Source of the DNA: a virus
Virus record (IMG/VR): IMGVR_UViG_3300018421_000131
Location: 1 to 30,147 of that record
Reading direction: 5' to 3' (one strand)
DNA: 30,147 nt
In this document: positions 1 to 27,359 of the stretch, in pieces
Position numbering within the stretch: position 1 is the stretch's first letter
How the letters are laid out: the number at the start of each line of letters is the position of its first letter
The notes under the pieces: model-generated
Database searches by the model: none
What the model saw: the letters and a program-made list of their open reading frames with translations, nothing else
What the model was told of the DNA's origin: nothing
Program-made: the position numbers and the translations under genes

Positions 1-76
1 CAGCAATTTGGAAAACCTCAAATAGGGATCTTTCTTGGTTTAGAAAGTCCTGTGTGTTCTTATTCCACTGAGCCAT
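1..76 (-). CDS. Partial gene, N terminus only; gene 17 (large terminase) slot or virion structural protein
   Basis: Only the first 25 codons are present; the gene runs off the left edge. The product starts MAQWNKNTQDFLNQERSLFE. Its ATG (76-74) shares one base with the TAA of the gene upstream (TAATG), so the two are translationally linked. T4 order places gene 17, the large terminase ATPase/nuclease, directly after gene 16, and only two accessory genes intervene here. However, the visible N terminus does not resemble the T4 gp17 start as I know it. A similar opening (W-N-x-x-T-Q-x-x-L-N-Q-E-x-x-L-F-E-V) is one I associate from memory with cyanophage virion structural proteins. Both identities stay open. 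That it is a real gene start is well supported by the overlap and open frame. Confidence 0.7.
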   Translation of the reverse strand, partial: MAQWNKNTQDFLNQERSLFEVFQIA

Positions 77-384
77 TAATCACTCCAACTTAGTCTTTCT
101 GGTTGATACCTTTGTGCGTTTTTGATTCTAGAAGTATTTACCTGACCAGGATAGATCTGATGAACAATCGCTCCAGGGTACTCTCCTTGAATTTGTTCTG
201 CGAGTTCATTCTTGGAAAGCATTGCACCTTCTACTTCTAGACGATACATCTTTCCTTCCCAGACAACATCAGCAAAGAAAGATTCTTGTGGTTGTTCTGG
301 TTGAGAACCACCAACGTTGAGGGTTCCATTGAAGTCACCGTTGATGGTGATACTTTCTGTTAAAAATTCTTGAAAACTTTTCAT
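76..384 (-). CDS. Small protein with T4-type capsid-targeting sequence (putative internal head protein)
   Basis: 102 residues. The first ten, MKSFQEFLTE, closely match the capsid-targeting sequence of T4 internal proteins (MKTYQEFIAE). Residues 8-10 (L-T-E) fit the (L/I)-x-E consensus cut by the T4 prohead protease gp21, so cleavage after Glu10 would leave a mature protein of about 92 residues. After that comes a Gly/Asn-rich stretch (ITINGDFNGTLNVGG, residues 12-26), then a compact predicted beta/alpha part with W42 and Y47. It ends in a basic-aromatic tail (IKNAQRYQPERLSW). Proteins of this type recur in marine T4-like phages as hypothetical proteins. The start lies 3 bases after the stop of the upstream gene and the stop overlaps the next start. 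The targeting role is inferred from the N terminus; the function of the mature part is unknown. Confidence 0.85.
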   Translation of the reverse strand: MKSFQEFLTESITINGDFNGTLNVGGSQPEQPQESFFADVVWEGKMYRLEVEGAMLSKNELAEQIQGEYPGAIVHQIYPGQVNTSRIKNAQRYQPERLSWSD

Positions 385-387
385 TGA

Positions 388-1932
388 TCAGCACTTCCAG
401 CGACGACGGGCTTTGCAAATTGCTTTATCGGGTGTTTTAGAGCAATCGATGTTATGCATGTCTTGCTGCCCCTTAGAGCGGGAGCAGAAGGACTTTCTAC
501 GCTTAGCATCCTTACTGCCTGGTTTTGGATCACCAGTTACAGCAGTCTTAAGTTTGGAACCTGGGTTCTCACGGCGATAAGTATCAACTGCTTTCTGACT
601 CATACCATCGGTCTTATCTGATTTATTTACCTTTTGCCAGTCTTCCATAAACTGACTGAAAGTTTTTTCTTCTTTCTTTACGCTAGGAAGTTCTGCTGTT
701 TTTCCTAACTTACTCTTTGCAACATCTCTTTCACCACCAACACCGACATTAGCAAGCGTTCTAATTTTTTCTCTTCTCTTTAATTTATTATGAGCATCTT
801 TATCAATAGTGAATGATTCCTTTACACAGTTTGGAACCATTTTTCCACCTTTCTTTTTCATTCCAACTTGCTTATAACCAACCCAACATGGATCACCATT
901 TTTCTTTGCTTCAACTACTGGTTCGAATTGATCTGGACCAATGATATCAATAACCTCTGCAAATGCTTTTCCATTAGCATCTTCAATTTTGACCGATTCG
1001 TTATGCTCACCACTATCAACATAATCTGCAGCAGTGTCTAAGTAATCTGCCGCTTTTGTGATCTTGGACTGGACCCATGCCTCAAGATTACCCTCACCTT
1101 TACCCATTTTTTTCTTCAGTCTTTTTGCTGCAGCAATGACTGTGGAAATTTCCGAACGAGCCATTGAGTACTCGTGGTCCTTTTCTTCTTTTCTTGTACG
1201 CTCTGCTTGCTTACGCTTAGCAAAATCCATGTAGGACTCACCAGGTTTCAGTCTATTGCTGTAGTCTGGTTTTCTTTGTGGAGATGATGAACGACCATCT
1301 TCACGAGCACGCTGGTTTGGACCAGGACCACCAAGTCTTCTATCTTTTTCGGGATCTGGATGCCAGAAGTCACCACGCTCATTGATGGTTTCTTCACTCT
1401 TGGTTCCCCAATTAGCAGCACCTACTTTACGGCACTTAACTAAAGCGCCAGAAGCATATGCACTTGGCCAAACATCATACCTTGCTTTTACTTTATTATA
1501 GCAGGCATCTTTTTTACCACTACCTTTTCCTGGTTTGTCTTTTGCCTCAGTAACTTCCATTTCCTCTTTCCTTACCTGTCTATCAGTTTTTACCATGGTT
1601 GGTTTAGATGCACCAGACTTTTCTTGTTGTTCGGGATCTTCTCTTCTTTTTGCACGTTGAGCAGCAAGTCTCTCTTTCTTAGACATACTTGCCCTTTTAG
1701 CAGAAGAAACACATTTTGGAATACCTTCACCTGGTTTGTCGCTAGCACATGAGTCACCTGTGACTACATTTACCCAACCTTTTTTACCATCCTTTGACTT
1801 AGACTTACCAAACCAATCACGAAGACCTTCTTCAGCAAGTTTCTTCTTACGTCCCTGACAATGAGCTCTCTGAGAAAACCCTTTTGGGTTATCACAATCA
1901 ATTGATTTCTTGTATTTCTCAGACCAGGACAT
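388..1932 (-). CDS. Lys/Cys-rich multi-module protein of unknown function
   Basis: 514 residues, very basic, with 12 cysteines falling in pairs (13/25, 62/74, 144/167, 349/369, 483/497, 506/514). I see separate modules. Residues 1-31 hold a short CDNPKGF...HCQGRKKK unit. Residues 36-117 hold a GWVNVVTG...IPKCVSSAKRASMSKKER unit, resembling the family I know as DUF5872. Residues 142-176 hold a CYNKVKARY...SAYASGALVKCRK unit. Residues 255-308 form a predicted helical unit with GEGNLEAWVQSKITKAADYL. Residues 346-371 hold a CWVGYKQVGMKKKGGK unit. Residues 423-514 hold a unit opening KTFSQFMEDW and ending in a Cys/Arg-rich tail. Such modules occur as small separate proteins in marine T4-like phages. 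It sits 12 bases after gene 16. The cysteine pairs could bind metal and the basic linkers DNA, but that is inference; no enzymatic motif is visible. Confidence 0.85.
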   Translation of the reverse strand: MSWSEKYKKSIDCDNPKGFSQRAHCQGRKKKLAEEGLRDWFGKSKSKDGKKGWVNVVTGDSCASDKPGEGIPKCVSSAKRASMSKKERLAAQRAKRREDPEQQEKSGASKPTMVKTDRQVRKEEMEVTEAKDKPGKGSGKKDACYNKVKARYDVWPSAYASGALVKCRKVGAANWGTKSEETINERGDFWHPDPEKDRRLGGPGPNQRAREDGRSSSPQRKPDYSNRLKPGESYMDFAKRKQAERTRKEEKDHEYSMARSEISTVIAAAKRLKKKMGKGEGNLEAWVQSKITKAADYLDTAADYVDSGEHNESVKIEDANGKAFAEVIDIIGPDQFEPVVEAKKNGDPCWVGYKQVGMKKKGGKMVPNCVKESFTIDKDAHNKLKRREKIRTLANVGVGGERDVAKSKLGKTAELPSVKKEEKTFSQFMEDWQKVNKSDKTDGMSQKAVDTYRRENPGSKLKTAVTGDPKPGSKDAKRRKSFCSRSKGQQDMHNIDCSKTPDKAICKARRRWKC

Positions 1933-1944
1933 TAAAATACTAAA

Positions 1945-2370
1945 TTATTCCTTACTATTTAGAAAACCTTGTTTGAGTAACTTTTGAAGTTCTGACGTTG
2001 ATCCGACAAACACTGCATTATTGGTAACAGAATTAGGTGCTTTATTACCAACATCTTCCTCAACATCTTTCAATTTTTTCTGAAGATCAATTAATTTATC
2101 TGTGGTATCTGCAACACTTTTAATTAACTGACCAGCAACTTCATATGCTCTTGGACTTCCTCCCTCACCGGCAAGTTCCATGATTCCGTTAATCGCTTCC
2201 TGACCTTTTTCGATTAATGAGTATAAGTTTGCTCTTGTGTACTCATAATCTTTTTTGATATCATCAGACTTTGGTGCAGATGCTTGAATCTGACTAGACT
2301 TATGATCTACCTCTACAATAGAACTTTCCACGTTTAGTGCCTCATCAATTTTTTCAAAGTTATTGGACAT
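1945..2370 (-). CDS. 16: Small terminase subunit gp16
   Basis: 141 residues, slightly shorter than T4 gp16 (about 164). In T4 this protein forms the ring oligomer that recognises DNA and regulates the packaging ATPase gp17. The N-terminal 40 residues are polar and probably disordered. Residues about 40-108 form a predicted helical hairpin (EYTRANLYSLIEKGQEAING, then a Gly-rich turn near 69-72, then a long amphipathic helix ending DLQKKLKDVEEDV), the fold expected for the oligomerisation core. A C-terminal segment ending LQKLLKQGFLN resembles the conserved tail seen in cyanophage gp16. It lies 5 bases after gene 15, exactly the T4 order. The Shine-Dalgarno site is weak. The assignment rests on synteny, size and helical pattern. 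Confidence 0.85.
   Translation of the reverse strand: MSNNFEKIDEALNVESSIVEVDHKSSQIQASAPKSDDIKKDYEYTRANLYSLIEKGQEAINGIMELAGEGGSPRAYEVAGQLIKSVADTTDKLIDLQKKLKDVEEDVGNKAPNSVTNNAVFVGSTSELQKLLKQGFLNSKE
1956..1963 (-). promoter_or_regulatory. Weak late-promoter-like box (TCTAAATA) before the 514-residue gene
   Basis: Minus-strand TCTAAATA has one mismatch to TATAAATA and lies in the last codons of gene 16, 24 bases before the ATG of the 514-residue gene, the same spacing as the perfect box at 6224-6231. It could give the accessory genes their own late transcript. One-mismatch boxes are frequent in AT-rich DNA, so the call is tentative. Confidence 0.25.
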
Positions 2371-15425: not shown

Positions 15426-18400
15426 TTAACCAAGATCTTTTCTTAGAGCGCCAGTGTTACGTAGTCCATATCCTCTCCTTTGGATGGTTGCAAATGTTGA
15501 TAATCCAGTATTAACTGTATTACCGGTTACTCCTATAGAAATTGGTGAAGAAGATCTTGAGAATCCTGAAAGTCTACCCCAAGAGAATTTACCAAGTTGA
15601 TCGTATCCAAAGGTATCAATTCCCAATAAAGAATCTGAATATTGGACATTACATACAATTGAAGCACTGGTAGAACCAACTGAGGTAAATGAATGAATCT
15701 TGTAAATATTATCAATAAATGTTGCTCCAATTCCTATGATTTCAGTATCCGAATTGTCTATAGATGTAACTCCGTTACCAATAGATGTATCAAATACATA
15801 GATTGGATATCCAGTTGTTAGACCTGTCCCAACGAATGAAAGTGGAGCTGGTACAGAAAGATCAAATTGGATAGCTAAACTTGTACCAATCCCAACAGAG
15901 GTTGATATTCCTGTAACTATTCCGCTAAATCCCTGAATATTTGTAATACCTGAAATATTTTCATAAGAAGCACTTGGAACTGGTGCTAGAACTTGTGGTG
16001 CAGTAAGAACACTATACCCTAGTCCAGGATTTGTTATAGTAATTGGAGAAGTTATAACACCATTAGTTACAGTAGCGGTTGCTGTTGCTGTAGTACCAAT
16101 ACCAACCCCAATTTGTTTTGGAGATGATATCTTCAAATCTATAGAAGTGCCTATATATCCACTTCCACCATCAGAAATAGTGAAGAAATCTATTGTTCCA
16201 CTTGACGTTACATTTGCAGTTATCGCTGCTGAAACTGGGTCATTACCATTAACAATTATTGCATTTACGCTGGATATGGAAATAGCAGATTCATTTTCTT
16301 CATAGTTAAAGAATTCTGCATCATCAACATAAAGTACACTATCATCAGATCCTAAATCATAAATTATTTTTGCTGTTGGATATACTAAAGATTCTAATGA
16401 ATCTCTTGTTTTATAAATTTTTTCACTGTTAACTATCTTATCAGATTTTTGTTTTATCCAGGTTAAAGGACGTTCGTTAACTTGATCGATACCATTTCCA
16501 CTATAAAGATTTGTTTCAATAATGTCTGAAGATTTTAGATTATATACAGTTCTTAAATCTTGATCAATAGTTAATGGAATTGTATTATTTTTTTCAATTT
16601 GAACACTATCTCCAGCCGTTAAGGACTCATTTATGGTAACAACCTTACTATCTTCACCTCTTGTTCCTCTATAGAAGAATACGGCAATATCATCTTCTTG
16701 TTTTGGTGGATTTGTAAATACGAAAGACGAACCACCATCAAACGAATATGCAATCTTTGGTTCTTGCAGTATACCGTTCATAAAAATTAAAAGTACTGAA
16801 TCCAAGTCAACTTCAGATGTTCCATCGGTTATTTCAAAACTTAATAATGATGAATTGTAATAAAGTGGGAATCTTCTTCTAGATCCATCTTGAAGAGATT
16901 TTATTGAATCAATGTAATCTAATTCGCCAAATTGCCATAATGCAAAACTATCAGTAAAAGTATCCACAACAGTCAACTCGAATTGAGACAATGGACTTGG
17001 TATTCCTTTTGCTGTTACCAATCCAACTGGAGTAATAACATCACCAACATTATATCCATATCCATTTCTTTGAATGGAGAATGAAGATACTTCAAATAAT
17101 GTAGATCCTATCCCTGTAGTTGATGCTGATGAAACATCGATATTAACTAAAAGACCATATCCAGTATCAGTGGTAGATCCAATTCCCAATCTAGATACTC
17201 CCTGAACTGGAAGATTGCTATAAGATGGTGATGGGATTTGAATAACTGGATTTACATATCCAGATCCACCATCAGCGACAGTAAATGATAATGACCCACC
17301 AGCACCTACTGTAGCTGTAATAGACGCCTCTGTTCCACTATGATTTGAATCAGTAACTCCTATAGAAACAGTTCCATAATATCCAGATCCAACTATGTCT
17401 GTGGTTCCTATACCAACAGAGGTAATAGTACCACTACCATCAATTACTGCTGTAACAGATGCTCCAACGAGTGGAGCGATGCCCAAACCACCAGTTGATC
17501 CAAGAGAAACGATGATTCCACCTCTAGGAAGTTGGTTAGTATTTACATCGCTTATAGAGATAACGTCATCCACACCTTCGTCAGATGATGATCCACTAAA
17601 AACAACACTACTGATTCCGACACTAGTGTCTTCAATTATTTTAAAATTATTTCCAACATTATTTTGGGTTGATGGCGTTTGGAATAAATTGTTTATGAAC
17701 AGAATACCATTTCCACCAGTTGTTCCAAGACCAACTGTGTTTATTCCATTTGTTGTTATTGTATAAGTTTGACCAATACCAGTAAATCCTTCAGAAATAT
17801 CATCGTATAATTTATTTGTATCATAATTTTGTCTCAAGTAAACCCTTCCACCAAATTTAGATTTGAAATAAGAAAGATTACTTTCATCTCTAGAGGATCT
17901 AAAGTCACCTTTTGGTGGATCAGTAAAGTGTATTTTATTACCTTTAATATTATAGGATCCTCTGTAAATTTTAACTTCTGTTGAATCAACGTGACTAGTT
18001 GCTGATGACCCAACAACTCCTCTTTCAACTTGAACCAAAGTTGTAACACCAATACCCGTTATTGGTCCAATATTAGTTTCTCCGTAACCAACGTTGATAA
18101 CTTTCATATACTCATCTTCAACTTTTAAGAGATCACCTGATTTTATAGAACTAATTCCACTTAAAGAAAATATTGTTGTTCCAACACCGACAGAACCACC
18201 ATAATTATTTTGTAAATTGTATGATAATAATGAATACGTTATTGGATACTGGGTCAAATCATCAATAGTTATCAAACATTTTTCAAGTTTTTTGGTCATT
18301 TCTAGACCATGAATATTACCAGCACCTAAAGATGTAAATGTTACATATATTCCAGCTTGAGCATAGTCTCTTCTTGTAGATAATCTAAAGGTGTCTTCTG

Positions 18401-21400
18401 TTAATTTAATTGGATAGACATCTGATGGAAGAATATCTGTAGAAACACCGGATGAGTTCAATGTGGTTACAATACCAACAGGAACAGGTACTACGTCACT
18501 CAATGAAGACTCTGCAGAATAAATGAGTTCTTCCCCAGTGTTAAAGAAATGGTTTTTAATCGTAAAGATTCCTGTGGTCGTATCTAATACATTAGTGTTA
18601 GAGGGATTGAAGGATTTTTTAAAGATTGGATAATCGTTGTTATAAAGATCAAAATCTCTACGCTCAACTCTTACACCATTTACTCCACCATATTCAATAA
18701 AACTAAAGGAATCTCTAGTTTTCCCATATTCAAGACTATTTGGAACATTTACTAAATCAAGATCGGTATATATTAATTCACTATAAGATGTCGCTGTTAC
18801 GTCACCCGTTACAGAAGAATCTGGATAAAATACTAATGATAAATCGGACCCATTTATTTGACCTCCAAATGTACCTATTCCAGTAGTGCTTCCTATAGAT
18901 AAAGGTTGATAAACAGATACATGAGTATCAGAACCACTATTCAAGAGAGCAACCTGATATAAAGAACTAGTTGATCCAACACTCAGATTTACAGTTGATT
19001 TTATTGAAGTGAAATCAAATTTAGATACAGATAATACTGTAGAAATTCCAGAAGAAACAAAGTAGTCGGATCTATAAACTGCTGTTTTTTCTGTTCCACC
19101 TGTCTGTTCCTCAGACTTAAATCTGAATGTAGATATTCCAACAGAAGTTGAACCAAAACCAATTGCTTTTACCCCTACTCTCAATAGATCTGTGGTATTG
19201 TTTGTAAATTCTAAAGAAATTACCCCGTCACTTAATAATGCATCAAACTCTCCGATTTGATTAACGGAACTGTTTGAAGTTGAATCAAAATAGTAATCAG
19301 AAATATAAACATTTGATCCATCATGATTTAAATATATTTCTGCATAATTACTTTCTCCATTTATGGTATTCTTTACATAAGCATTAAAATATATTGAATC
19401 ATATTCGGTAGATGCAAAAGAGACGATTGATGTTGAAATACCGGCATTATAATTTTTAATGCTTGATGTTAAATTAATCAGTCCTAGATCATGAGTTCCA
19501 ATTCCAATAAGGTCAGTAGAAAACTTACTTGAAATAATTTTTATATCGTAATCTTTAGTGTATGGATCAACTGGATTAAAAGCAATATAATTATTACCAA
19601 GTGAATCTACACCTCCATCAATACTGCCGATAGATGAATCTCTATTTGTTAGTGAAAGTTTTTCCAACAAGAAAATATCTTCCCCATCACCTATTATAAC
19701 TACTTCATTTAATTGATATTCCAAATCTTCAGTATCTTTCACTTGTATCAAATACTTTGTGAATCCACCAAATTCTTCAGTATCAGTATCAATAATATTT
19801 TGATCTGATTCCTCTAGTCCAACATTGGAGAATCTAGATGATATATCATCTATAGATAAGACTCTGTTTGATATACATTCAACATAACTAGATAATTTTT
19901 TATTCTTAAATTTTATAAATTTTGTCCTTGGCAGTATAGAATCAATATCATACACTAAATCAAAGTTATTGATTGCATCTACTCTACTTTCATTAATAAA
20001 ATCTAAAATTTCAAAAGATCCATCCTTTGTTGTTTTTATACCGGCATTTGCACTCCTCTCTATTTGAGTGTCTGCAAAATTCTTCATTCCAGAAGTGTGC
20101 AGCAATCTATTAACAGGAGTAGATAACCTATCATACTCTATGGGACTATTAACTGAGTATGATAGATTTTGATAATAATCGTTATCGGCAACAAATTGTT
20201 TATCATCATTTAGTTTACCAATATCATCTTTCCATCCAAAATTTTTCCTAGTTGAAGATCCAACTTCAAATGCGCCAGTATTGTTTTGAATATCAATTAT
20301 AGTTGCAGTAACTCCAGATTTTTCACCCTTTATTTTAGATCCAATTAATAGTTGATAGTCGCCACGAATTTTTATTGAATCTTTAATTGAATTTGTTATT
20401 ACAATATCAGTTCTAACATATTTCCCATTAACATAAACTAGAATATTTTCACCCAATGTAAATCTAGCAAACTCTTTATTAATAGTAAATGTTGGATAAT
20501 CTTTGTATCTTGTTATAAATGCAAGGGAATCTTGTGTAGTTTTTGCTATTCCAGGATTTGTAGAAAGACCAGAAATGTTGAATTCTAAAGATGTTGGGAT
20601 AGAATTTGTAAATGAAGTTACTGTGACGAAATTGTATCCAATATCTTTAGAGTTATATCCATTTCCAGAATCATAATTAACTACACCTTCAACAAAAATT
20701 TTATCTCCAACTGCAAATGGGTCTTCAGTAAATCCAAGAACTGGAGTTTCCAAATAACAAGTAACTATTCCAGCACCAGAAGTTTGTATTGAAGAAATTG
20801 CATATCCATTATCATTGTTTATAGAAATAATTTCAGTTTGATTTGAAGAAATGCCATAAGGAATTTCTTTTATCTCTACAGAATTAATCGTTCCATTACT
20901 TAGTTTGGGTATTAATAATCCACTATCAAATACTTCTCTGGTAACAGAATCAACAATTATTAGATCTGGTTCTTTACTATATCCAAATCCACCACTGGAT
21001 ACTCCAACTGAAGTTATTTCATATAATGAATCTAAGGTTATATCTGGAGAAATATATGCTGTCGGTTTTAATGTTTTATCTGAAGAGTAATCAAATCCTT
21101 GATTCAATATTCTTACTTCATTTATTTGACCAATTTTTTCAGAATTCGCTACTACATATCCACCAGTTCCATTTTCTGTTTGTATTTGAGAAAATGCTGG
21201 TAGTTTTTTATAATTTGATCCAGAATTAAGTAATTTTGCTTTACTAATACCACCAGTGGTATTCAAAGATTTTGTAGAATATTCTAAAGATTTACATTCA
21301 GAAGAAGCATACCCTAATACTTCTGGAGAATTTTGTAAGGACAATTCAAAATACTCTAACCCCAGACCAGTAACATTATATGTGTTATTATAAAAACTAT

Positions 21401-24400
21401 CAGAAAAATTAATTAAAGATGAATTGATAACATCTTTGTCGGATGTGCTAATATAACCAGCTGGTGTTTTTACTGTATAGTATAACTTCTGTGGAACATC
21501 ATCCAAATAATTTAAGGTCAAACTTGCTTCAGAAGAAAGTCCAACAGTACCAACTCCAGAAACAACAAAGTTTGAAGATGATTCAACTGATGAAAATTCA
21601 TCTTGGAAATCTTCATCAAAATAAATTTTAAATTGATAACCATAAAGAGTTGAGTCTGAAAGGTCAAATTTTAGATTATTATTTTTTATAGAAATTAATT
21701 CTGGATTAATTAAACTTATTTCTTGGTATAGTCCACCAGTCGAAGCTATACTTACAACCTGTGGTGGATTTGTGGTCGAGTCAGCATATGTTTCACAAAG
21801 TTTAATATTATCATCATCGACTTTGTAGGTATAATATGATCCTGTTGCTAAACCACTAGCGATCAAGTCTGAAGACGTATAATAAACTTTATCACCAGTT
21901 TTTAATTCGTGTGAAGATAATGTGATTTGATTGTTTATGGTGTTAATTCCTACAGAACTAAATCCAATTGGATTAATTAAAAGATTTTGAGAAGTTTCAT
22001 CAAATTTTACATACACTGAATTGAATGTTTGTATTCCAACAGTCTTTTGGGGTTTGACTTTCAGTGTTACCTCATCACCGTATTTTAATCCATGATAAGT
22101 TGAGACCGAAACAGTGGTTTTTACTTTTTTAACATCAGAAAATACTCTATTATAATCACTTTCTATAGAATATTCGTAACTTTCTGCACTTCCACCATCA
22201 CTAACAAAAAATATCTCTGAAGATTGAAGTGTAGTTTTTATACCAATTGTATTTTTTGTCTTATTTGTAACATAAACTATTTCTGAAGTCCCCGAATATG
22301 GAAGATTAAAAGGTGTTCCAGAAAAAGAAGTGGATATAGAAAGAGAAGAATAAGATGAACTTGGTTTTTTAAAAATAACTCTCTCATTATTTTTAAATTT
22401 ATGATCCTTAATGTAAATGGATTGGGTTTGGAGAGGTCTTGTGTATGTTGCAACACCAACTGTTGATATTCCAAGAGAAAATACATTGGTGGATGTTATA
22501 CCAACACTTAATCCAAATCCTATCGATTCTGATGGTTTAAAATATTCTTTGATATTAAATTCCGAATCAAAATAATCTACACTTTCCAAAATTGTGAAAG
22601 TATCTGGAACAAAATAGACTGAAGTTGTTGCGGTATGTGCTGCTCCAACATTTCTTTTTATTCTGATAATATTTTGGTCAGAAAATATATTAAGCAGCTC
22701 TGCAAATTCTGACTCAATTTTTATACTGCTACCAATTGAAATATTGGAAGGAATGGAATTTACATAAATGTCTGTTGCTAAACCAAGAACGGAATTTGAT
22801 GGGATATCTTCTGTGAGAGTCGAAGTGAATGATGAAACACCAACCTTATTGAATTTTTTAATCTGACTAAGTTTAGAAGTTGATAATCCAGACAGAGTAA
22901 CATAGTCACCATTAACCAAATCATGATAAGGAGATACTTTAAATTCTAAAGTATCTTCATTTTTCCTATTAACTTCTACATTTGAATAAGACTCAATAGT
23001 TGTATTTAAATTAATAATATCTTTTCCAGTTATTTCTGTTACAGATGCCTTTGCCCCACTACCACCAGTTCCTGCATTATCAAACAAGATAATATCATTA
23101 ACTTTGTAGTCAGTTCCAACACCAACTATTTTTAAATCCTCTACAGATGAAGAGAAGACAGACTCTATCTCTACTCTCTGATCATAATAGTTATAAGATT
23201 CAAATATAAAATCATTACCTGCATTTAAATCATTAATTTTATATGGGAATGTGTTTCTAATTAAATTTGAATTATTAAAATCGAAAGTTTGGTTTAAATT
23301 ATTGTTTTCCTCAATGAATTTTGATCTATAACTATTACCAATAAAATATGGGAAGGATGACACTCCAACATTTCCACTATTAAGAGTTGCGAAATATGCA
23401 TATACACCATTTGGGAATTCTGGAGTTTTACAGAATCTACCATTATGCTCATCCAAGTCTCCAGATCCGGTGAATCTATAATCATCTGAGAAGAATCCTG
23501 GGGTAAATTCTAAAGGTCTATTTTTTACATTAGACTCATCCAATTCATAACCAGTATTCAGTAATTTAGTCTCAGAATCTTCATCTTCTGGATCCGAATA
23601 CCCATATGGACCGTAAATAGGATTTCCATCGTATGCCCAACCAATAATTGGTGAGTGTTTGGATGAATTTATATCTTTAAATTCTGTTTGTAGTTTTGTT
23701 CCGTATCCAGATACTGAATACTGAATACCATCAAATCCAGAATCTAAAATTTCATTTCCATATCTGTTGTTCTTGTTTAAAGATAGATATCTAACATTGG
23801 AATCTATCAATACATTTTTACCTGCAGGTGTAACTACAACACTGGTTGTTGATTGGGTATATCCTATTCCAGAATTTACAACAACAACATTAGTAATTTT
23901 TCCATTTTGAATTACTGGTTTTAATTCTGCGCCATTACCATCACCAATAACTTTGATATCTGGTAAAGAATAATACTCAGATCCACCAAATTGGACTATG
24001 GCTTTTGTTATTGATCCATTTATTACTATTGGCTTAATTTCGGCATTTTTTCCATTTTTTATCTCTACTTTTGGTTTTCTATGGAAATTTAAGGTCTTGG
24101 ATCCATAATTTAAACCACCCTCATACAAATATGCTCCTACAATCTCTCCTCTAACTATAGGTGTTGCTGTTAAAACGCCAACAACTTTTCCTGTAGTTCC
24201 AACACCAACACTAGAATAATTAATTGAAAATTCAATATCTGGATATTTAAAATATTGATACCCAGATCCATTTGAGCCAAATTTTACATATTTTCTTCTT
24301 TGATAATTTGAAAGAGTAGAACCAGATTCTACTACATCTTCACAAACCCTGAATTGATCTTCATTAAGCTTTAAAACCCTATAATTCGTAGAAGATGATA

Positions 24401-27359
24401 GTCCAGAAATTGAAGATGCTTCGTAATCATATCTGATAAAATCTCCATCATTAAATCCATGATTTTTAAAGTTAATAGTATTATACGTTGTAGAAATTCC
24501 AGAAGGATTTACAATTAACTTTCTATTTTCATATCCACTTCCAGGATCTAAAACTATAATATCCTTTAGTATAGTTCTTGGATCTGCAGTTCTGAACTTT
24601 TGCACTCCCTCATTTCCATACTCAGTAAATCCAACTGTATTAACACCAACTGCATAATCTCTGGCGTTTTCATACAATCTTACAGTTCTATCATTTATTA
24701 TTTCACAATAATAAGCAGACTTATCTACTAAAACTAAACCACTATGTGCATTTGATCCATCAAAAGTTCCTATTCCTATTGCAGAACTACCATTTCTATC
24801 ATAAGTAATCAAATCTCCATCATTTAAAAAGTGCTTATCCAAAAAAGTAATGGTGTCGTATGTAACATCTACACCACCATTGTCAGTTGATAATTTTGCA
24901 CTAAATTCAATGTCTCTGAATTGTCTTTTATCCAGTAATGGGTAAAAGGAAGCTCCGTTTCCATTACCACCAGTTAGAGCTATAGAAACGATACTATCAA
25001 GACTTATAACTTGGGGGTCAACAAATACTTTTTCTACTTTACCTTTAACAATTGGTTGTACCTTAGCTCCTGTTCCTGTCGTATCTGTAAATTCGATCTG
25101 TGGTGGATTAACCACATCATAATCGCTTCCACCATCAAGAACATCAACACTATCAATTGGACCATAATAAATTCTATCATTCGACTTATAGTTACTAATT
25201 TCAACACCATTAATTAATAGACCAACAGAACCAGGAACAGTGTCATCCGACTTTCCATCAGCAATATTTACAGAAAGAGGTAATTTTCTTAATATTTTTT
25301 GTGGCGAGATAACTCCATTTTTCTGAGAATTTAAGATAAAATTATGAGATCCAGATCCTGGAGATAAAGATTTAAACTGAATATAATTGTTACTACCAAT
25401 AAAAGATTTGGAGGTATAAAGTCTTACTTGATTTAATTCTGAAAGAACTTCAACATAATAAACACCTTCTTCTAATCCAGGAATTACAGAATTTTCTGCA
25501 GAATAGTATACTTCATCACCAGTTATAAACGGAACATTAGATGGGAATGATAAAATGGAATATGTCTCTGTTAAAATATTGAAAGATTGTAATCTTGGTT
25601 CAGTTGCTTCCGAAATAGAAGCCTCAAATAAATTTTCGGTGATTGTATATGATGGTAAAGAATTTGATGCAACATAAATGTAATCATCAGTTTCATTATA
25701 AACGTTTTGAATATCTGATGTAATTAAATTGTTCCCAAACTCTATGGGCACTATTGAGCTTTTTGCCTTATTTAATTTTCTCCTTATATCATACTTTAAA
25801 TTGGAATTATATGAAAATCCTACAAGATTTCCCAATACTATGTGATTAGTTTGTGGATTTATGGATTGAATAAATGGAATATCTGCAGATGAAGAAACAA
25901 TAGTCTCACTATCTTTTAGTAAAATTTCTACTTTATCTCCAACTTTTAAGCTAGATTTATCAATCTTGCTAGTCAATACAAAAGTAGATCCAGTAATAGA
26001 CTTTACTTGGTATCTAGAACTAGTATTGTAGATCCAACTATTTACTAATTTTTCTTTATATGTTTTATTATCTGTTGGATTTTTTATCAACTCTCCAACA
26101 TTATTTACATATAAGTAATCACCCTCTTCTACTGTAAACCTTGAAGAACTTGGGACAAATGAAGATATTACTCCTGTTAGTCTTAATTCAACTTTTTTAG
26201 TTATATCTCCGTTTTCATATCCATAAACAATAAGATCTGATCTAACGGAAGATGTTGGAGAAATATCTTCCGTTATACCAGAACATCCATAAAACTGATT
26301 AATGGTTTTTCCGGTATATGTAATATTTTTCCCATTAATGACTATGGTTCCTTGATCAAGGAACCCTATAGTAGAATCTACAGTTACAACAGATGAACCT
26401 TCAGATGTCTTTTCTACTACTAAAGTTTTTCCGGGAATTGAAAATGATCCTGTTGAAATAGAATCATCATCATATCCAACAAACAGAGATAGTTGATAAT
26501 ATGTTACTCCTTTTCTAGTTAAAGAATCTACTGCAGATACTGATCCAAACAAACTAGTATTGTTTGACTGTTGTATAGTTTGCCCAACTAGTTTAGTTGG
26601 ATCGCCAGAAATTACTTCTGCTACTACAACTTCTCTTCTTAAATATTCTGCCGAAGATGGTTTTATTAGATATTCTTCAAGATTAATTACTTTTGGAGTT
26701 ACTCCATATAAAACATTAAATAAAATTTTAAAGGATTCTTCTGTCCCCTTTGCTTTATATAAAGTTTTTGCTTCTTTAATAAAATTACCAACATTTAAGT
26801 CACTAACAAAATCCAGATCTTCAAGACCTGGAGCCAAAGAAATTTTGAGTTTTTTATAAAATTCTTTTAAAAATAGGGAACTTAAATTTTGTACAATCTT
26901 TCCAGAATCATGTGACGTAGAAGTTGTAGTCTCAAAAACTAATTCACCAGGATTCTCGGTGCTATGATAAGTTGTTATACCACTAAATCCCCTAACACAT
27001 CCTGTAAATGTTGTTGAGGTGCTATCAGTATATGTGATGATTTCATCATCAATTTTAATCAATCCATATTTTTGGGGAAAACCTTTTGTATTCGATACTT
27101 CTATTGTAGTATCTGAAGAATTAATAGAAGTAGAAAGTGTTGCAGAATCGACAACTACCTCTGGAGTTAAATTGTCTAATCTCAGATATTGATCTAAATT
27201 CTCAGAAATATCTGATGTTCCACCTTGATATTCTTGAGAAATATAATATTGCTTTAAAAACTCTGCAGCTTTTGGACTCTCATCTAAAATAAATTCTGGA
27301 AGTTGATTTTCAATTATTTGTTGAACTTTTACTCTTGTCTCAAATCCTGTCTTGATCAT
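15426..27359 (-). CDS. Giant 3977-residue structural protein in the T4 gene 7 slot, with embedded YHYH-like domain
   Basis: 3977 residues in one uninterrupted frame, starting one base after the gp6 stop with an AGAGG ribosome site. T4 gp7 at this position is 1032 residues. Residues 1-~245 look like the conserved wedge-proximal part (TRVKVQQIIENQLPEFILDE; KAKGTEESFKILFNVLYGVT; LKEFYKKLKISLAPGLEDLD). Residues 1240-1323 hold a YHYH-type domain (GWAYDGNPIYGPYGY; DLDEHNGRFCKTPEFPNG) in which the His pair is replaced (YAYF, 1320-1323). At least ten GxGY repeats are spread from about 740 to 3790 (for example ADGGSGYVNPVIQI). Units with an ILFINNLFQTPSTQNN core (~3220) and an LLIFMNGILQEPKIAYSF core (~3520) resemble cyanophage fibre modules. 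It is probably the wedge scaffold plus host-contact arm; the gp7 equivalence is positional. Confidence 0.88.
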   Translation of the reverse strand: MIKTGFETRVKVQQIIENQLPEFILDESPKAAEFLKQYYISQEYQGGTSDISENLDQYLRLDNLTPEVVVDSATLSTSINSSDTTIEVSNTKGFPQKYGLIKIDDEIITYTDSTSTTFTGCVRGFSGITTYHSTENPGELVFETTTSTSHDSGKIVQNLSSLFLKEFYKKLKISLAPGLEDLDFVSDLNVGNFIKEAKTLYKAKGTEESFKILFNVLYGVTPKVINLEEYLIKPSSAEYLRREVVVAEVISGDPTKLVGQTIQQSNNTSLFGSVSAVDSLTRKGVTYYQLSLFVGYDDDSISTGSFSIPGKTLVVEKTSEGSSVVTVDSTIGFLDQGTIVINGKNITYTGKTINQFYGCSGITEDISPTSSVRSDLIVYGYENGDITKKVELRLTGVISSFVPSSSRFTVEEGDYLYVNNVGELIKNPTDNKTYKEKLVNSWIYNTSSRYQVKSITGSTFVLTSKIDKSSLKVGDKVEILLKDSETIVSSSADIPFIQSINPQTNHIVLGNLVGFSYNSNLKYDIRRKLNKAKSSIVPIEFGNNLITSDIQNVYNETDDYIYVASNSLPSYTITENLFEASISEATEPRLQSFNILTETYSILSFPSNVPFITGDEVYYSAENSVIPGLEEGVYYVEVLSELNQVRLYTSKSFIGSNNYIQFKSLSPGSGSHNFILNSQKNGVISPQKILRKLPLSVNIADGKSDDTVPGSVGLLINGVEISNYKSNDRIYYGPIDSVDVLDGGSDYDVVNPPQIEFTDTTGTGAKVQPIVKGKVEKVFVDPQVISLDSIVSIALTGGNGNGASFYPLLDKRQFRDIEFSAKLSTDNGGVDVTYDTITFLDKHFLNDGDLITYDRNGSSAIGIGTFDGSNAHSGLVLVDKSAYYCEIINDRTVRLYENARDYAVGVNTVGFTEYGNEGVQKFRTADPRTILKDIIVLDPGSGYENRKLIVNPSGISTTYNTINFKNHGFNDGDFIRYDYEASSISGLSSSTNYRVLKLNEDQFRVCEDVVESGSTLSNYQRRKYVKFGSNGSGYQYFKYPDIEFSINYSSVGVGTTGKVVGVLTATPIVRGEIVGAYLYEGGLNYGSKTLNFHRKPKVEIKNGKNAEIKPIVINGSITKAIVQFGGSEYYSLPDIKVIGDGNGAELKPVIQNGKITNVVVVNSGIGYTQSTTSVVVTPAGKNVLIDSNVRYLSLNKNNRYGNEILDSGFDGIQYSVSGYGTKLQTEFKDINSSKHSPIIGWAYDGNPIYGPYGYSDPEDEDSETKLLNTGYELDESNVKNRPLEFTPGFFSDDYRFTGSGDLDEHNGRFCKTPEFPNGVYAYFATLNSGNVGVSSFPYFIGNSYRSKFIEENNNLNQTFDFNNSNLIRNTFPYKINDLNAGNDFIFESYNYYDQRVEIESVFSSSVEDLKIVGVGTDYKVNDIILFDNAGTGGSGAKASVTEITGKDIINLNTTIESYSNVEVNRKNEDTLEFKVSPYHDLVNGDYVTLSGLSTSKLSQIKKFNKVGVSSFTSTLTEDIPSNSVLGLATDIYVNSIPSNISIGSSIKIESEFAELLNIFSDQNIIRIKRNVGAAHTATTSVYFVPDTFTILESVDYFDSEFNIKEYFKPSESIGFGLSVGITSTNVFSLGISTVGVATYTRPLQTQSIYIKDHKFKNNERVIFKKPSSSYSSLSISTSFSGTPFNLPYSGTSEIVYVTNKTKNTIGIKTTLQSSEIFFVSDGGSAESYEYSIESDYNRVFSDVKKVKTTVSVSTYHGLKYGDEVTLKVKPQKTVGIQTFNSVYVKFDETSQNLLINPIGFSSVGINTINNQITLSSHELKTGDKVYYTSSDLIASGLATGSYYTYKVDDDNIKLCETYADSTTNPPQVVSIASTGGLYQEISLINPELISIKNNNLKFDLSDSTLYGYQFKIYFDEDFQDEFSSVESSSNFVVSGVGTVGLSSEASLTLNYLDDVPQKLYYTVKTPAGYISTSDKDVINSSLINFSDSFYNNTYNVTGLGLEYFELSLQNSPEVLGYASSECKSLEYSTKSLNTTGGISKAKLLNSGSNYKKLPAFSQIQTENGTGGYVVANSEKIGQINEVRILNQGFDYSSDKTLKPTAYISPDITLDSLYEITSVGVSSGGFGYSKEPDLIIVDSVTREVFDSGLLIPKLSNGTINSVEIKEIPYGISSNQTEIISINNDNGYAISSIQTSGAGIVTCYLETPVLGFTEDPFAVGDKIFVEGVVNYDSGNGYNSKDIGYNFVTVTSFTNSIPTSLEFNISGLSTNPGIAKTTQDSLAFITRYKDYPTFTINKEFARFTLGENILVYVNGKYVRTDIVITNSIKDSIKIRGDYQLLIGSKIKGEKSGVTATIIDIQNNTGAFEVGSSTRKNFGWKDDIGKLNDDKQFVADNDYYQNLSYSVNSPIEYDRLSTPVNRLLHTSGMKNFADTQIERSANAGIKTTKDGSFEILDFINESRVDAINNFDLVYDIDSILPRTKFIKFKNKKLSSYVECISNRVLSIDDISSRFSNVGLEESDQNIIDTDTEEFGGFTKYLIQVKDTEDLEYQLNEVVIIGDGEDIFLLEKLSLTNRDSSIGSIDGGVDSLGNNYIAFNPVDPYTKDYDIKIISSKFSTDLIGIGTHDLGLINLTSSIKNYNAGISTSIVSFASTEYDSIYFNAYVKNTINGESNYAEIYLNHDGSNVYISDYYFDSTSNSSVNQIGEFDALLSDGVISLEFTNNTTDLLRVGVKAIGFGSTSVGISTFRFKSEEQTGGTEKTAVYRSDYFVSSGISTVLSVSKFDFTSIKSTVNLSVGSTSSLYQVALLNSGSDTHVSVYQPLSIGSTTGIGTFGGQINGSDLSLVFYPDSSVTGDVTATSYSELIYTDLDLVNVPNSLEYGKTRDSFSFIEYGGVNGVRVERRDFDLYNNDYPIFKKSFNPSNTNVLDTTTGIFTIKNHFFNTGEELIYSAESSLSDVVPVPVGIVTTLNSSGVSTDILPSDVYPIKLTEDTFRLSTRRDYAQAGIYVTFTSLGAGNIHGLEMTKKLEKCLITIDDLTQYPITYSLLSYNLQNNYGGSVGVGTTIFSLSGISSIKSGDLLKVEDEYMKVINVGYGETNIGPITGIGVTTLVQVERGVVGSSATSHVDSTEVKIYRGSYNIKGNKIHFTDPPKGDFRSSRDESNLSYFKSKFGGRVYLRQNYDTNKLYDDISEGFTGIGQTYTITTNGINTVGLGTTGGNGILFINNLFQTPSTQNNVGNNFKIIEDTSVGISSVVFSGSSSDEGVDDVISISDVNTNQLPRGGIIVSLGSTGGLGIAPLVGASVTAVIDGSGTITSVGIGTTDIVGSGYYGTVSIGVTDSNHSGTEASITATVGAGGSLSFTVADGGSGYVNPVIQIPSPSYSNLPVQGVSRLGIGSTTDTGYGLLVNIDVSSASTTGIGSTLFEVSSFSIQRNGYGYNVGDVITPVGLVTAKGIPSPLSQFELTVVDTFTDSFALWQFGELDYIDSIKSLQDGSRRRFPLYYNSSLLSFEITDGTSEVDLDSVLLIFMNGILQEPKIAYSFDGGSSFVFTNPPKQEDDIAVFFYRGTRGEDSKVVTINESLTAGDSVQIEKNNTIPLTIDQDLRTVYNLKSSDIIETNLYSGNGIDQVNERPLTWIKQKSDKIVNSEKIYKTRDSLESLVYPTAKIIYDLGSDDSVLYVDDAEFFNYEENESAISISSVNAIIVNGNDPVSAAITANVTSSGTIDFFTISDGGSGYIGTSIDLKISSPKQIGVGIGTTATATATVTNGVITSPITITNPGLGYSVLTAPQVLAPVPSASYENISGITNIQGFSGIVTGISTSVGIGTSLAIQFDLSVPAPLSFVGTGLTTGYPIYVFDTSIGNGVTSIDNSDTEIIGIGATFIDNIYKIHSFTSVGSTSASIVCNVQYSDSLLGIDTFGYDQLGKFSWGRLSGFSRSSSPISIGVTGNTVNTGLSTFATIQRRGYGLRNTGALRKDLG

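Follow-up and report, generated by a model that had tools for sequence, protein, structure and literature searches.

A small PHROG_1742 protein of a T4-like cyanophage with a probable T4-type capsid-targeting N terminus

The open reading frame at 76-384 and its neighbourhood

The window analysed here is the whole 30,147-nucleotide stretch of a viral record (IMG/VR IMGVR_UViG_3300018421_000131), and its gene content is that of a T4-like cyanophage late-gene cluster, with gp16, gp15, gp14, gp13 and baseplate genes. An open frame with an ATG start occupies positions 76-384 of the minus strand, and its 102-aa product begins MKSFQEFLTESITING / MKSFQEFLTESITINGDFNG. The features considered below are the following:

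76..384, minus strand: ORF of a small protein with a putative capsid-targeting sequence (CTS), 102 aa, a PHROG_1742 member (phrog_1742, E 1.9e-40, residues 1-101)
355..384, minus strand: codons 1-10, MKSFQEFLTE, the putative CTS (positions 1, 2, 4, 7, 8 and 10 constrained in 35 non-redundant homologues)
352..357, minus strand: putative cleavage bond Glu10/Ser11, after the (L/I)xE rule of the T4 gp21 protease (E10 invariant, S11 in 34/35 homologues)
283..354, minus strand: residues 11-34, behind the putative cleavage site, predicted to be flexible (pLDDT <50 over residues 9-31)
148..282, minus strand: predicted beta-beta-alpha-beta core domain, residues 35-79 (AlphaFold2 model, block pLDDT ~70-80)
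1..76, minus strand: start of the next gene, MAQWNKNTQDFLNQERSLFE..., resembling S-SZBM1_190 (phrog_1645, 'virion structural protein')
388..1932, minus strand: upstream neighbour, 514 aa, with a C-terminal DUF6321 (homologue SSCSM1_29 labelled 'virion protein')
1945..2370, minus strand: small terminase gp16 (PF11053 / phrog_445)

The start codon of the 76-384 ORF lies 3 nt past the end of the DUF6321 gene (388-1932), and its TAA shares 1 nt with the ATG of the next gene (TAATG, 78-74), whose relative S-SZBM1_190 has been detected by mass spectrometry (MS) in virions (PMC9146016). In the relatives inspected, the PHROG_1742 gene separates the gp16 side of the terminase region from its gp17 side, gp17 being located beyond the part that matches the window. 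A preliminary description of this DNA had placed a small protein amid terminase-region genes; the ORF is real, and its position in these relatives agrees with that placement.

The PHROG_1742 profile matches the ORF over its full length, N terminus included; the family carries no assigned function, and no Pfam family matched the ORF. By tblastn, the ORF has matches in 139 records, all bearing names of Synechococcus or Prochlorococcus phages or of cyanophages; laboratory phages that encode the family include S-RIM8, Syn33 and S-SKS1. Within the window, no other ORF has an MKx[FY]xxF start. The 388-1932 neighbour contains an internal KTFSQFMED (634-672, minus strand) that is CTS-like but has Asp at position 10, a residue that in T4 permits targeting and blocks processing (PMC9026906), and S-SZBM1_192 carries an N-terminal MKTFKQYITE ahead of a DUF6321-like C terminus. 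Elsewhere in the window, one open frame of 3977 aa spans the baseplate region (15426-27359, minus strand).

Position-specific conservation of the N terminus

Translation of the ORF bore out the MKSFQEFLTE described earlier at residues 1-10, with L-T-E at 8-10, and the T4 peptide to which it had been likened, MKTYQEFIAE, can be read in IPII and IPIII from the T4 genome itself. The two peptides are identical at 6/10 positions, the rest being the pairs S/T, F/Y, L/I and T/A.

The pattern M-[KR]-x-[FY]-x-x-F-[LIM]-x-E is kept in 119/119 full-length homologues, a set that leaves out one contig-edge case and two proteins whose start had been called at a Met of position 8. These homologues were fetched mostly by body-only queries, so the N terminus is free of retrieval bias. 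Among the 35 that are non-redundant, M1, F7 and E10 are invariant, position 2 is K in 34/35, position 4 is F or Y and position 8 is L, I or M, while positions 3, 5, 6 and 9 vary. Mean entropy is 0.35 bits at positions 1, 4, 7, 8 and 10, 1.49 at positions 3, 5, 6 and 9, and 1.21 over residues 31-102. Mutagenesis of T4 IPIII showed that residues 4 and 7 govern targeting and residues 8 and 10 govern processing (PMC9026906); the constrained positions 4, 7, 8 and 10 are thus those critical in T4, as IPIII genetics would lead one to expect. All 35 proteins combine an aromatic residue at position 4 with Phe7, and at the end of the peptide their sequences follow the (L/I)-x-E rule of gp21, with L, I or M at position 8 ahead of the invariant E10. 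The greater conservation of the motif positions over the remainder, which the preliminary description had proposed as a check, was observed, though S11 (34/35) and I14, past the putative cut, are also nearly invariant. Its refuting case, a homologue keeping the body and lacking the motif, was sought in the 119 proteins and none was found.

We searched 12 phage genomes for DNA encoding MKx[FY]xxF(hydrophobic)xE and obtained 21 matches, and none with the pattern reversed; the T4 matches were IPII, IPIII and gene 61.1. When the motif followed by Ala was searched in IMG/VR, at least 120 stretches were recovered, against 12 for a permuted-order control, 10 of which belong to one family with an internal Met. 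Among the 84 true-pattern matches listed, 81 stand at gene-start-like positions, and the proteins that bear the tag form over 30 clusters whose bodies are unrelated. The tag is not universal, since S-PM2 had no match with either form of the motif, and in HTVC008M the stricter form matched nothing and the looser form a single, unconvincing stretch. In S-TIM5, most of the motif matches do not look like real gene starts, and those examined in its genome did not place the tag on the virion kinase of this phage.

The same tag on virion-detected proteins of other cyanophages

The virion proteome of S-CREM2, published as MS data with coordinates (PMC10665884), allowed the tag to be compared with virion detection across 225 called genes (2/52 virion-detected genes are absent from these calls). 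The strict, T4-derived motif occurs in four of the 225, namely gp6 (SAM lyase, PF23780), gp14 (kinase-like), gp136 and gp154 (cytidylyltransferase), and 4/4 were MS-detected in virions (Fisher P=0.0022). A relaxed motif, widened to fit N termini already seen, adds gp13 and gp15 and marks eight genes, 6/8 of them virion-detected (P=0.0018); neither P value is blind, as N termini and detection status were known before the patterns were written. The strict test weighs most because its positions derive from T4 genetics, the relaxed form having been fitted. Outside both tests, the Cas9-like gp12 of S-CREM2 has LRFASFMAE followed by AA at residues 17-26.

Cytidylyltransferases have been MS-detected in the virions of S-SM1 (PMC3037559), S-SCSM1 (PMC9602691) and S-SZBM1 (PMC9146016), and they begin MKKFSAFLNE, MKSFLQFLKE and, one residue shorter, MRFRQFIIE, respectively. 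In S-CRM01, the cytidylyltransferase is tagged, and so is a protein homologous to the S-CREM2 kinase (29.6%, E 4e-44); a kinase homologous to that of S-CREM2 has been reported in S-CRM01 virions (PMC10665884). The peptide is therefore common to proteins with unrelated bodies within the same phages. The major capsid proteins of S-CREM2 and S-SZBM1 have similar sequences, GLLTE/A and GILTE/A (the slash marking the putative cut).

Several further observations concern tagged proteins. S-CREM2 gp12 and gp14, S-SCSM1 ORF91 and PSSM2_194 of P-SSM2 have in common, behind the tag, a second module, approximately LGLxGDGHGxWYDxxGxxVAxTxxGxLxFY, and a 111-aa protein of S-SKS1 is hardly more than the tag and a module of this LGLxGDGHGxWYD type. 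SSCSM1_93, a 69-aa 'virion protein', has a CTS-like sequence, KKRTFKEFLEYIE, at its C terminus. On environmental virus contigs, tagged proteins resemble, as judged by eye, ADP-ribosyltransferases, a GNAT acetyltransferase, HAD hydrolases, a lysozyme and a metallopeptidase.

Proposed role and alternatives

Very probably, the 76-384 product begins with a T4-type CTS that ends in a gp21-type cleavage site and belongs to the prohead as cargo or core protein, because the residues under constraint coincide with those singled out by T4 mutagenesis, the body never lacks the motif among the homologues retrieved, and the tag stands on unrelated proteins found in virions. We consider it likely that this T4-like cyanophage packs the product into its head as prohead core cargo, an internal protein targeted by the CTS and cleaved after Glu10. 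We infer that residues 1-10, a short amphipathic helix presenting Phe4 and Phe7, would dock on the scaffold core during prohead assembly, and that a gp21-type protease would cut after Glu10 (Leu8-x-Glu10/Ser11). The cut would free, inside the head, an acidic protein of 92 residues with a small beta-beta-alpha-beta domain, which may stay as a low-copy internal protein, perhaps leaving with the DNA, or be lost on maturation.

The AlphaFold2 model, of low mean pLDDT (61), opens with a short helix at residues 5-9, is disordered over 9-31 and folds into a beta-beta-alpha-beta core at 35-79. The first Foldseek matches of this low-confidence model in the PDB were T7 Gp2 and RNA polymerase epsilon (YkzG), at E 0.2-0.3 (for Gp2, prob 0.98, TM 0.64 on the target, E 0.21), a fold likeness that is suggestive only; phmmer against the PDB found no sequence match to Gp2. 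The phmmer matches of residues 78-101 to Kelch/SAKe entries of the PDB were taken as spurious. Among viral structures, the fold matches included a virion protein of S-SCSM1, DUF6321 proteins and, recurrently, annotated RNA polymerase inhibitors. With an HMM of the body, the domain was recognised within SSCSM1_29, a virion protein (E 0.001), in an S-B05 neighbour (E 1.6e-4) and in a second CTS-tagged protein, a paralogue, of Sf-FS3. After cleavage, the protein would have an acidic pI of 4.7, whereas IPII and IPIII of T4 have one of 9.6, and we treat a basic mature protein as typical, not defining, of T4-type internal proteins. At this pI, condensation of DNA as by a basic internal protein is unlikely, and so is the DNA-protection role that had been suggested, at least by charge.

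The earlier inference of packaging, cleavage and injection is supported in part, the N terminus behaving as a T4-type targeting and prohead-protease site. The case is weakest for the direct homologues SSCSM1_30 and S-SZBM1_191, the two whose phages have published virion proteomes, neither of which reports them. SSCSM1_30 is 'hypothetical' in its record, both flanking genes being labelled 'virion protein', and we take these labels, from the record, to reflect the MS of the S-SCSM1 paper. S-SZBM1_191 would yield six usable tryptic peptides and is absent from the 30 proteins MS-detected in that phage (PMC9146016), which include small ones such as S-SZBM1_195 (87 aa); 0/2 S-SZBM1 annotated genes with the exact motif start (191 and 192) were detected in virions. 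Low copy, loss on maturation or absence may account for the non-detection of S-SZBM1_191. Between gp137 and terL, S-CREM2 has no annotated gene of the PHROG_1742 type.

These non-detections bear on a plausible though less favoured alternative, which has the CTS step in common with the cargo reading and differs in the fate of the protein. A core or assembly factor would enter the prohead core through the tag and then be degraded or expelled, as is T4 gp68, which is found in proheads and is absent from mature heads (PMC9026906); such a protein would be missing from mature virions and never ejected. The silence of two virion proteomes on the homologues, the place of the gene between virion structural genes, with a 1-nt overlap with one of them, and an acidic protein where T4 internal proteins are basic agree with this account. 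However, the tag is common to enzymes that do stay in virions, missing one small protein in MS is weak evidence, and beyond its one apparent cut site the protein has a folded domain.

The fold matches raise a further reading, in which the protein would be packaged, injected and active in the host, for example on RNA polymerase. Two internal proteins of T4, IPI and IPIII, are active in the cytoplasm of the host (PMC9026906; PMC9391042), and the weak likeness of the model to T7 Gp2 and YkzG, together with the RNA polymerase inhibitors among the viral matches, would suit such a factor. We judge it unlikely and host takeover a guess, as the PDB matches are at E 0.2-0.3, the model has a mean pLDDT of 61 and its fold is a small, widespread one, and a domain embedded in the virion protein SSCSM1_29 is better suited to a structural role. 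We also think it quite unlikely that the protein works outside the head as a virion structural component or assembly chaperone, its N terminus binding a neighbouring structural protein and not serving as a CTS: synteny with virion structural genes is conserved and conservation continues beyond Glu10 (S11, I14), but an N terminus of identical type stands on unrelated proteins at distant loci, enzymes included, and its positions agree one by one with T4 genetics. Chance likeness of a short amphipathic, Lys/Phe-rich start, conceivable for only ten residues when MK starts are frequent in AT-rich genes, is practically ruled out by the reversed and permuted controls, the conservation and the association with MS detection.

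Beyond this ORF, we lean towards the view that T4-like cyanophages load varied effectors into the head through one exchangeable CTS, for delivery at infection; these would include cytidylyltransferase/NMNAT, kinase, SAM lyase, Cas9-like nuclease, GNAT- and ADP-ribosyltransferase-like proteins and the PHROG_1742 protein. If so, virion cargo could be read from the genome, a simple rule to predict the proteins that abundant ocean viruses bring into their hosts. Several cyanophage proteomes have found metabolic or regulatory enzymes in virions, their authors being undecided between cargo and contaminants; that these very enzymes bear a T4-type targeting peptide provides a means of loading and speaks for genuine cargo. 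The unannotated 102-aa PHROG_1742 ORF becomes a testable candidate for an internal-head protein, and a function is proposed for its family. The open-access papers that we searched do not describe a CTS in cyanophages, and within that literature its link to virion cargo appears undescribed.

Two known systems offer the closest comparison. With T4 IPII and IPIII, the 76-384 product shares the length of the N-terminal peptide, the constrained positions 4, 7, 8 and 10, the (L/I)xE rule and a small mature protein (92 aa, compared with 90 and 183). It differs from them in showing no sequence similarity past residue 10, in the acidity of the mature protein (pI 4.7 vs ~9.6), in its P1' residue (Ser here, Ala or Arg-flanked Ala in T4) and in the location of its gene in a terminase/neck cluster; packaging and cleavage are here predictions from sequence. 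The acidity and the P1' Ser both count against the internal-head reading. With the virion-associated cytidylyltransferase/NMNAT of cyanophages (T4-GC190), it shares a CTS-like N terminus and many of the same genomes, whereas that protein has a nucleotidyltransferase body and has been MS-detected in the virions of four phages, which PHROG_1742 has not. T4 gene 61.1 (NC_000866, 18966-19130, minus strand), which adjoins 61.2, encodes 54 aa with the CTS-like start MKTFKEFIKED.
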